From assembly GCA_903842065.1 (NCBI GenBank), contig CAIMKZ010000074.1, positions 62,001 to 126,000 on the forward strand: a stretch of 64,000 nucleotides of DNA. Reading direction: 5' to 3'. The stretch comes from an uncultured Acidobacteriaceae bacterium (GTDB lineage: Bacteria > Acidobacteriota > Terriglobia > Terriglobales > Acidobacteriaceae). Shown piece by piece: positions 32,926 to 35,058 of the stretch (position 1 is its first letter; every line of letters starts with the position of its first letter). Under the pieces are notes generated by a model. The model did not search any database and was not told the DNA's origin. It saw nothing but the letters and a program-made list of their open reading frames with translations. A program made the position numbers and the translations under genes.

Positions 32926-32960
32926 TTGACTCTGTAAACTAAATAGTCTACATTCCCAGA
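32926..32960 (+). promoter_or_regulatory. higBA promoter with internal operator, leaderless
   Basis: The -35 box TTGACT (32926-32931), 17-bp spacer and -10 box TACATT (32949-32954) place the expected transcription start at or next to the A of the higB ATG (32961). The inverted repeat GTAAACTA-AA-TAGTCTAC (one mismatch) fills the spacer, where an antitoxin would block RNA polymerase. There is no ribosome-binding site, consistent with a leaderless mRNA. Confidence 0.7.
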
Positions 32961-33236
32961 ATGATCGGTGCGTTCCGGCACAAGGGACTTGAGGAGCTTT
33001 ACCTCACCGGCAAGACCCGCCGGATAGGGCACGATCATCTCAGGAAATGCATTCGCATCCTGCATTTGCTGGATGCCGCAACCCAGCCTGAAGAGTTGAA
33101 CATCGCGGGCTTTCACTTCCACGGTCTCGAAGGCAAACCGAAGCGATGGTCATTGCGGGTGACCGGAAACTTGAGGATCACCTTTGGCTGGTCGGGTGAA
33201 ACCGCATCGGATATCGATTTCGAGGACTACCATTAG
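32961..33236 (+). CDS. higB: HigB-type RelE-superfamily toxin
   Basis: A 91-residue basic protein of the plasmid-maintenance HigB family: FRHKGLEELYLTGKTRRI at the start, the middle stretch RILHLLDAATQPEELNIAGFHFHGLEGKPKRWSLRVTGNLRITFGW, and the end DIDFEDYH. HigB cuts mRNA at the ribosome, and HigA neutralises it. The order toxin-then-antitoxin is the higBA hallmark. The ATG has no Shine-Dalgarno and lies at the predicted transcription start. Confidence 0.93.
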   Translation: MIGAFRHKGLEELYLTGKTRRIGHDHLRKCIRILHLLDAATQPEELNIAGFHFHGLEGKPKRWSLRVTGNLRITFGWSGETASDIDFEDYH

Positions 33237-33259
33237 CCCCCTGAAGTAGAGAGGACATT

Positions 33260-33583
33260 ATGCAGAAGAAGAGCGGACTGCCACCTGTTCACCCGGGCGA
33301 GATTCTCAAAGAGGACGTACTGCCCTCGGTTGGTCTCTCTGTAACCGCTGCAGCTAAGGCTCTCGGCGTCTCCCGGCAGTTGCTTCACGACATTCTGGCA
33401 GAGCGCAGGCCCCTCTCTGCGGTCATGTGCCTCAAACTCTCCCGCCTGCTCGGCGGCTCTCCCGAGCTGTGGATGCGGTTGCAGGCAGCTTACGACCTGA
33501 AGATGGCGGAGCAGGATAAGAAAATTATGGCGCGCGTCATCCGAATCATGCCCATGGACAGACCTCAAGAACTTCGGGCTTGA
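33260..33583 (+). CDS. higA: HigA-type antitoxin (XRE helix-turn-helix)
   Basis: A 107-residue DNA-binding antitoxin. The N-terminal HPGEILKEDVLPSVGLSVTAAAKALGVSRQLLHDILAERRPLSAVMCLKLSRLLGGSPELWMRLQ is the typical HigA/VapI helix-turn-helix. It should bind HigB and repress the promoter at 32926-32960. ATG at 33260 has AGAGAGGA 5-6 nt upstream and lies 23 bp after higB, so unlike higB it is translated in the ordinary way. Confidence 0.93.
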   Translation: MQKKSGLPPVHPGEILKEDVLPSVGLSVTAAAKALGVSRQLLHDILAERRPLSAVMCLKLSRLLGGSPELWMRLQAAYDLKMAEQDKKIMARVIRIMPMDRPQELRA

Positions 33584-33664
33584 TCCGCACGGCGGAGGAA
33601 CCGGGGAAAATCCACCACTGGTGCGCCACTCGACAGGCTTACAAAGCAGTTGACTCTATTCCGA

Positions 33665-33690
33665 TAAGGGCCGCGCGCGCGCGGCCCTTA
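33665..33690. terminator. Palindromic terminator between higA and the oxidoreductase gene
   Basis: A perfect 26-bp palindrome, TAAGGGCCGCGCG at 33665-33677 followed by its complement, lies between two convergent genes and can serve both. No strong T run follows, so efficiency is uncertain. Confidence 0.6.
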
Positions 33691-33700
33691 CTACTTTCCT

Positions 33701-34774
33701 CTACGCCTTGAAATCTGCCGCGCTATAGGCGCCCGGTTTCCATGCGGGAATGGCCCAATCCGCGGGGACGGTCCCGACCTTCACCGGAGCGCCATTGCGC
33801 TCCATCTGCGAATAATAGGCGGTCTGAAGGCACTGAAACTTCTTCCGCATCACCTCCAGCGGCTGATACAGGGCGCGTCTTTCAAAGCTGCGCTGAATAT
33901 CCTTTAACTGCGGGAAGAAGCGCGTAATGGCATCGGAACCAGCCGGGATTCTGGTCGAAACCTCGCCCTGCTTGCACAGGATGTTGAACGAGAACAGATC
34001 GGTTCCTGCTCCCTGCATGGAGAGAACGAACGGCTTTCTCTTGTCGGTTCCGGGATAGTAGTAGTCCACGCTTAGAAATCCCGTCTTGCGCACATCGTCG
34101 GCGTTCATGCTGATGGATGCCACGTCGTAGCCAAGGATCTTCATCATCAGGTACGGAATGTGGAAGTGCGGCTCATCGGGAATCTCCGCCGTCGCAAAGG
34201 CTCCCAGGACCTCCCCCGCGCTGGTTAACTGGCGCACCGCGATGCTTCCCTGATCGTTGTGCTCGAAGGGAACCGTCGCCATCACAGGAGTGCTGTGCTT
34301 GGCAGCCAGATCGAGCATCTCGTCCATGTGCACGAGCGTGTTTGACCAGTGCCGCTGGAGGAAACTGGGGATTCCTGCCTGAATATAAGGCCGCAGTAGC
34401 AGGTGCTGCCAGGGCGCAAGGATAAGATCGCCAACCAGAACAGCGTCCACTTTGCCGACCATGGCATCGTAGCGTTCGACCACCTCGCAATCCCACTTGT
34501 CAGCAAAATCGCGCGCCTTTTTGGTGTCTTTGTCCCACACATATGCGGGCCTCATGCGCAGCAGACTGGTCCCCTCATACTTTCCCTTGGGGCTGAGAAC
34601 GTTGGCCCAGATATCCCAAAAAGAGTAATCGAGGCCCAGGGCTCCAACCTTCATGACCGGTGTGGAATCGGACGGCGCGGCGGATGCAACGCTCGCCATA
34701 GACAACGCAGCCACGGCGCCTGCCCCAGCCACCTTCAGAAACTCCCGCCTGCCGGAACGCAAAGTGTTTGTCAT
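33701..34774 (-). CDS. Tat-exported Gfo/Idh/MocA-family protein
   Basis: A protein of about 357 residues. The N-terminus carries a twin-arginine signal, SGRREFLKVAGAGAVAALSMASVASA, so it is exported folded. The remainder resembles Gfo/Idh/MocA oxidoreductases (MKVGALGLDYSFWDIWANVLSP, then KARDFADKWDCEVVERYDAMVGKVDAVLVGD, where the Rossmann fold usually continues), but the usual G-x-G-x-x-G is not clear, so cofactor use is unsure. Such secreted forms often act on sugars. ATG at 34774 with AAGGAG 7 nt before; 24 bases of in-frame sequence precede it. It is placed between the two toxin-antitoxin pairs and on the opposite strand. Confidence 0.72.
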   Translation of the reverse strand: MTNTLRSGRREFLKVAGAGAVAALSMASVASAAPSDSTPVMKVGALGLDYSFWDIWANVLSPKGKYEGTSLLRMRPAYVWDKDTKKARDFADKWDCEVVERYDAMVGKVDAVLVGDLILAPWQHLLLRPYIQAGIPSFLQRHWSNTLVHMDEMLDLAAKHSTPVMATVPFEHNDQGSIAVRQLTSAGEVLGAFATAEIPDEPHFHIPYLMMKILGYDVASISMNADDVRKTGFLSVDYYYPGTDKRKPFVLSMQGAGTDLFSFNILCKQGEVSTRIPAGSDAITRFFPQLKDIQRSFERRALYQPLEVMRKKFQCLQTAYYSQMERNGAPVKVGTVPADWAIPAWKPGAYSAADFKA

Positions 34775-34856
34775 GCCGCTCTCCTTTTCGTAATGCACAT
34801 CATACCGTCAATGACGGACGGCCCTCATCTCAAAACACCGCTATATTTGGGTGGCT

Positions 34857-34898
34857 CCAGGTCATCCGCCGTGGCAGACCGCGGCGGATGAGACCTGG
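34857..34898. repeat. Dispersed palindrome, copy 2 (upstream of hicAB)
   Basis: Arms CCAGGTCATCCGCC (34857-34870) and GGCGGATGAGACCTGG (34883-34898), with a 2-nt bulge, preceded by GGGTGGCT and followed by GAAGCACC. This is the same family as the copy before higBA. The left base of the outer arm, CCAGGTC, is shared with the copies at 51813 and 61582. Confidence 0.7.
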
Positions 34899-35023
34899 GA
34901 AGCACCGGTCCCTCGCCGAATGCCGCTGACCTCACCGCAGGTGATTTGGCAGATCGTTCTTCCCTATACCGTCCCAGTTCGTTCCCGAATCCGGAGACCG
35001 CAAGCCCCGCCGCAGGCGGAGGG
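34899..35023. other. Spacer between palindrome copy 2 and the hicAB promoter
   Basis: No gene. It contains two short hairpins of the form CCTCACC-GCA-GGTGA (about 34931-34942) and CCGCC-GCA-GGCGG (35008-35020). The second is directly before the hicAB -35 box, at the same relative place as the CCACC-GCA-GGTGG hairpin before higBA. Confidence 0.5.
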
Positions 35024-35058
35024 TTGACATGGTAAACATAATTGTGTACTCTTTACTC
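35024..35058 (+). promoter_or_regulatory. hicAB promoter with internal operator, leaderless
   Basis: TTGACA (35024-35029), a 17-bp spacer and TACTCT (35047-35052) put the start of transcription at or next to the A of the hicA ATG (35059). The spacer holds GTAAACA-N4-TGTGTAC (one mismatch), a likely antitoxin operator. It aligns without gaps to the higBA promoter. No ribosome-binding site precedes the ATG. Confidence 0.72.

Follow-up and report, generated by a model that had tools for sequence, protein, structure and literature searches.

Promoters of the higBA and hicAB modules of an uncultured Acidobacteriaceae bacterium share one layout and bear distinguishable predicted operators

The window, i.e., the whole 64,000-nt stretch of DNA analysed (positions 62,001 to 126,000 of contig CAIMKZ010000074.1, assembly GCA_903842065.1, from an uncultured Acidobacteriaceae bacterium), contains two toxin–antitoxin (TA) modules, which, together with an opposite-strand ORF (33701-34798), sit between pdxS and pdxT (31531-36287). 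The upstream one is a HigBA module with the gene of a RelE-like HigB first and that of an XRE HigA second (PF05015 and TIGR02607), and the downstream one belongs to the HTH-class HicAB systems (class 3 of PMC10865869), with HicA first and a HicB that has a C-terminal HTH and matches E. coli HicB over nearly its full length; the hicA stop and the hicB start overlap (TGATG). At 17 of 29 same-genus loci read, no more than ~1.5 kb separates pdxT from a pdxS upstream of it, and the two are in many cases direct neighbours, so that the interval in the window probably shows an insertion; hicB and pdxT, which follows it nearly contiguously, may share a transcript. Directly adjoining the higBA -35 is a repeat, GAGCCGAAGGC-GGCCCCACCGCAGGTGGC (32893-32925), copies of which are scattered beside unrelated genes in several of the genus's genomes; it was considered as a TA promoter cassette and rejected, since unrelated genes are also preceded by it. 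An Rfam search of the window returned one tRNA only. The features of both modules are collected in Table 1.

Table 1. Features of the higBA and hicAB modules, with positions counted from the first letter of the window.
Feature	Position	Strand	Basis and remarks
higBA -35, TTGACT	32926..32931	+	direct reading; TTGAC at 32926-32930
predicted HigA operator, TGTAAACTAAATAGTCTACA	32933..32952	+	26.0 bits with HigA profile (close copies left out), 14.2 with HicB profile
higBA GTAAAC	32934-32939	+	direct reading
higBA GTCTAC	32946-32951	+	direct reading
higBA -10, TACATT	32949..32954	+	overlaps right half-site of predicted HigA operator
higB, RelE-like toxin, predicted leaderless	32961..33236	+	PF05015, E 4.5e-14; no Shine-Dalgarno
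higA Shine-Dalgarno, GAGAGGA	33249..33255	+	duplex energy -6.4 kcal/mol
higA, XRE antitoxin, recognition helix VSRQLLHDIL	33260..33583	+	TIGR02607, E 8.4e-28; HTH_3; XRE-family chain 6f8s, E 2.3e-20
hicAB -35, TTGACA	35024..35029	+	direct reading; TTGAC at 35024-35028
predicted HicB operator, GTAAACATAATTGTGTAC	35032..35049	+	24.4 bits with HicB profile, 2.6 with HigA profile; E. coli K-12 hicA has a palindrome of this type upstream
hicAB GTAAAC	35032-35037	+	direct reading
hicAB GTGTAC	35044-35049	+	direct reading
hicAB -10, TACTCT	35047..35052	+	overlaps right half-site of predicted HicB operator
hicA, toxin, predicted leaderless	35059..35250	+	PF07927, E 3.9e-10; no Shine-Dalgarno
hicB Shine-Dalgarno, AAGGGAG, within hicA	35236..35242	+	duplex energy -8.7 kcal/mol
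hicB, antitoxin, C-terminal HTH with TSKQEVNRLT	35250..35675	+	PF15919, E 2.4e-7; E. coli HicB 6hpb/6u0i, E ~3e-29

The promoters of higBA (32926-32963) and hicAB (35024-35061), when read directly, align over 38 bp without a gap and have the order TTGAC, 3 nt, GTAAAC, 6 nt, GT[C/G]TAC, 9 nt, ATG in common, just as the first-pass annotation of this DNA had stated, and its further remarks that each promoter contains an inverted repeat with one mismatch and a -10 placing +1 on the ATG hold on direct reading as well: 6 bases lie between the -10 and the start codon in both, so that, with the usual sigma-70 spacing, the predicted +1 is the A of ATG. The likeness of the two promoters is not due to chance; the exact pattern has only two copies in the 4.09 Mb genome (those before higB, 32961, and hicA, 35059; none in the control), and in the window, where two exact matches were found, the number expected at 3 mismatches or fewer is 0.08. 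At 3 mismatches, however, the pattern is no commoner in the genome than its reversed control, which makes only the near-exact matches informative, and, of the matches with one mismatch in other genomes, roughly every second one lies in unrelated sequence.

A search for the pattern before other TA genes, as had been proposed, thus gave nothing beyond the two window copies for the exact pattern in this genome, whereas a looser leaderless-promoter pattern (TTGAC-N17-19-TANNNT-N5-7-RTG) does recur before other TA genes here. It has 16 matches in the genome, seven of which stand before genes recognisable as TA modules (five modules are HigBA or its HigB_toxin variant, that of the window counted, and the others are the hicAB of the window and one HI1420-type antitoxin). 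One more match precedes an XRE regulator, and another two precede possible TA genes, namely, that of an RHH protein, which matched weakly, and a RelE-like ORF interrupted by a stop in frame (recognised by reading, without a Pfam match). The shifted control, with the start codon 10 nt further off, yielded 13 matches at 12 places, and none of the ORFs read there was a TA gene; by our own calculation, the TA enrichment over the shifted pattern has p ~0.01, or ~0.03 without the two window promoters. As the total number of matches hardly exceeds that of the shifted version or of the reversed control, the enrichment is in TA genes and not in the pattern itself. Some of the TA modules behind leaderless promoters in this genome are apparently decayed, namely, a RelE-like toxin ORF interrupted by a TAG in frame (L199), an HI1420-type antitoxin with a toxin remnant only (L193) and a HigB that is read in two frames (L192).

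For a broader comparison, homologues of HigB and HicA were gathered across the family and the class, and the regions upstream of 58 HigB and 26 HicA loci were compared; the same geometry is found upstream of homologues of both toxins from other genera. The first base of TANNNT peaks at -12 from the start codon (33/58 HigB and 12/26 HicA loci, with backgrounds per position of 2.2 and 0.6), from which +1 would be expected on the start codon in these homologues too, and TTGAC is present at -34 to -37 in 38 of the 58 HigB and at -35 in eight of the 26 HicA homologues. Pairing with the anti-Shine-Dalgarno is almost absent at the toxin starts of the homologues (means of -1.6 and -1.5 kcal/mol for HigB and HicA) and present at the antitoxin starts (means of -7.1 for HigA and -8.8 kcal/mol for HicB, n = 7 starts in the latter case), with p ~1e-19 for the difference, a value uncorrected for relatedness that overstates independence, as the loci share descent. 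Neither toxin ATG of the window has a Shine-Dalgarno (+0.4 for higB and -1.6 kcal/mol for hicA), as had been noted before, whereas both antitoxin starts do. The suggestion that the toxin mRNAs are leaderless gains comparative support from the position of the -10 in the homologues and from the missing toxin Shine-Dalgarno; most likely, the higB and hicA mRNAs start at or beside the first base of the toxin start codon. Leaderless TA transcripts of this kind have been measured in another phylum, where, of the 37 M. tuberculosis TA pairs whose primary start has been mapped, 32 are leaderless (PMC3898074), whereas those of the window are predicted. A published prediction assigned 13.3% of the genes of three Acidobacteria genomes to the leaderless ones, in a paper that makes no mention of toxins (Zheng et al. 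2011; PMC3160421).

The antitoxins of the two modules can be told apart by their predicted sites, even though their DNA-binding domains are both XRE-type HTHs, in which VSRQLLHDIL of HigA aligns with TSKQEVNRLT of HicB (hhalign 87%, E 3.8e-6); the earlier statement that HigB/HigA and HicA/HicB are unrelated families, hence, holds for the toxins and fails for the antitoxins, whose HTHs are homologous. Among the relatives, HigA with a VSRQ helix pairs with TGTAARCT-N4-AGYTTACA, and with other HigA helices (VTRVxLSR and similar) this promoter position is taken by different cores, TATCG and TAACG among them. The shared promoter geometry described by the first-pass annotation is real, but general among HigBA modules of this class and independent of which operator sequence they have. 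HicB with (S/T)(K/P/R)QE(V/I)NR pairs with TAAACA-N4-TGTTTA, a site that is found for HTH-type HicB across Acidobacteria, Proteobacteria, phages and E. coli K-12. Another set of HicB proteins (L163-L176) bears CHLPQVDR as its recognition helix, and the palindrome that precedes their hicA genes has the core AACA-N4-TGTT.

Operator profiles were built from 13 HigA and 13 HicB sites, with the window sites scored after close copies had been left out; not included in the HigA profile, after inspection, were L056, L151, L152 and L156, which are close HigB relatives with no clear operator seen upstream, and L155, which is in another register. Counted from the dyad centre, position 3 has an A in every HicB site (13/13) and in no HigA site (0/13; Fisher p 1.9e-7, related loci), and T is present at position 10 on both sides in 12 of the 13 HigA vs five of the 13 HicB sites. 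Both window sites score far higher with the profile of their own antitoxin family (Table 1), and the separation at position 3 is full, i.e., the two sites do not share one specificity; a single HicB site, L111, is not separated on the full profile (20.0 bits with the HicB and 21.4 with the HigA profile).

The HicB-type site is widespread: an exact-pattern scan of 84,980 species gave 18 places, seven of them in Acidobacteria, all seven before hicA or higB; the other places are before hicA in Acinetobacter and Martelella, before TetR-type genes and before unrelated ORFs. GTAAAC-N6-GTTTAC was accordingly rejected as a TA-specific mark, since TetR-type regulators with a divergent promoter carry it too: it is present in the divergent promoter beside such a regulator at L104, L107, L109 and L116, some of which have a short-chain dehydrogenase-like ORF on the opposite side. 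In two genomes (L033 and L034), TTGACAATGTAAACCTATTCGTCTAT is flanked by an HTH gene on one side and a DNA methyltransferase-like ORF on the other. Phage and proteobacterial contigs have the same -35 and operator before a hicA whose start is ~23 bp further downstream, behind a Shine-Dalgarno. At L114, L118 and L121-L134 (proteobacterial or phage hicAB), an ATG mini-ORF of 4-12 codons stands at the predicted +1 and is followed by a Shine-Dalgarno-led hicA; L177-L179 are without such an ATG at the predicted +1.

How, then, could two promoters of different modules have come to look so alike? The GTA of the left arm is there because the palindrome mirrors the TAC of the overlapping -10, and the likeness of the two sites can be attributed to this mirrored TAC/GTA combined with XRE helices starting with (S/T)(R/K)Q and with leaderless spacing. 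That nothing more than the sigma-70 consensus and palindrome symmetry is involved, with no antitoxin binding at all, would account for TTGAC, TAC and the mirrored GTA, but is very improbable, as the AAC core is not demanded by the promoter, is conserved before hicA in other phyla and changes together with the recognition helix from one HigBA subfamily to another. The cross-regulation through a shared operator that the first-pass annotation had entertained, with one site serving both modules, could draw on the 11 identical pattern positions within the operator, on the homologous HTH domains and on the 14.2 bits that the HicB profile gives the higBA site; against this, each site bears the bases of its own family at positions 3 and 10, the HigA profile scores the hicAB site at only 2.6 bits, and the same site families are seen at loci where the other module is not seen alongside. 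Two distinguishable operator families are what the comparison yields, and a common operator is improbable; two-way cross-regulation of higBA and hicAB is, thus, unlikely, whereas HicB, given the 14.2 bits, might bind weakly to the higBA site, in this one direction.

Its other reading, the capture of one module's promoter cassette by the other (or the insertion of a mobile promoter before both), agrees with the gap-free alignment over 38 bp and with the dispersed genus repeat adjoining the higBA -35, a repeat that, however, is also seen before unrelated genes. Positions outside the pattern match between the modules at 4/19, which is the chance level, vs 11-15/19 within each family, which disfavours a recent capture; the flanks of the two promoters match at 15/40 and 12/40, and both operator types are widespread, leaving capture extremely improbable. 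As for the transcripts, the toxin mRNAs could be leadered and come from an unrecognised upstream promoter, with the spacer palindrome acting as a downstream roadblock, and the E. coli hicAB operon does have an additional upstream promoter, P1, and so two promoters in all (PMC11594946); yet the -35/-10 pair is found at a fixed distance from the start codon across many genera, and the toxin genes have no Shine-Dalgarno before them, which makes this decidedly improbable as the main route, while a weak upstream promoter yielding some leadered mRNA is possible.

Known systems resemble both modules in part. An inverted repeat named hicO is the site to which HicB of E. coli K-12 binds as a repressor (PMC10865869), and the E. 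coli K-12 hicAB operon has, like that of the window, the HicA-HicB order, a homologous HicB (6hpb/6u0i) with the KQE helix and a palindrome of the same type upstream of hicA, GTAAACACTAATGTTTAC; E. coli hicA, however, has a leader with a GGGAGG Shine-Dalgarno, whereas the start codon of the window hicA is the predicted +1. GraTA of P. putida and HigBA of P. aeruginosa, in which the antitoxin binds a promoter palindrome (PMC6393540, PMC6987408), share the toxin-antitoxin order and an XRE antitoxin with the higBA of the window, whose HigA matches the solved XRE chains 6f8s/6f8h and 6jpi; their central palindromes are TAACGTTA and TTAACGTTAA, respectively, with two dimers bound, vs TGTAAACT-N4-AGTYTACA in the window.

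Taken as a whole, the comparisons make it very probable that higBA and hicAB are separate toxin-first type II modules, each self-repressed, with leaderless toxins and Shine-Dalgarno-led antitoxins. HigA would bind TGTAAACT-N4-AGTYTACA and HicB GTAAACA-N4-TGTKTAC, each antitoxin, alone or with its toxin, occupying its own palindrome in the -35/-10 spacer and probably blocking RNA polymerase there, since the palindromes sit in the spacer and overlap the -10; the sites would be told apart by their base pairs 3 and 10, counted from the dyad centre. Transcripts would begin at the toxin start codon, with the toxin translated leaderless and the antitoxin gene from its own Shine-Dalgarno. Genes of this kind commonly have the shared layout in this group, and it does not amount to a single switch for two systems.

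More tentatively, a leaderless toxin and a Shine-Dalgarno-led antitoxin on one mRNA might be class-wide and lead to an excess of antitoxin, with the XRE antitoxins separated mainly by one base pair per half-site and a possible one-way repression of higBA by HicB. We hypothesize that it is the translational asymmetry that holds the antitoxin in excess; if true, it would tilt toward the toxin when stress favours leaderless translation. What looked like a coincidence of two promoters would, in such a case, become a class-wide rule (leaderless toxins, Shine-Dalgarno-led antitoxins and operators in the promoter spacer), one that allows a simple test of antitoxin excess in toxin-first operons, and the operator families paired with their recognition helices would provide material for working out HigA and HicB specificity.
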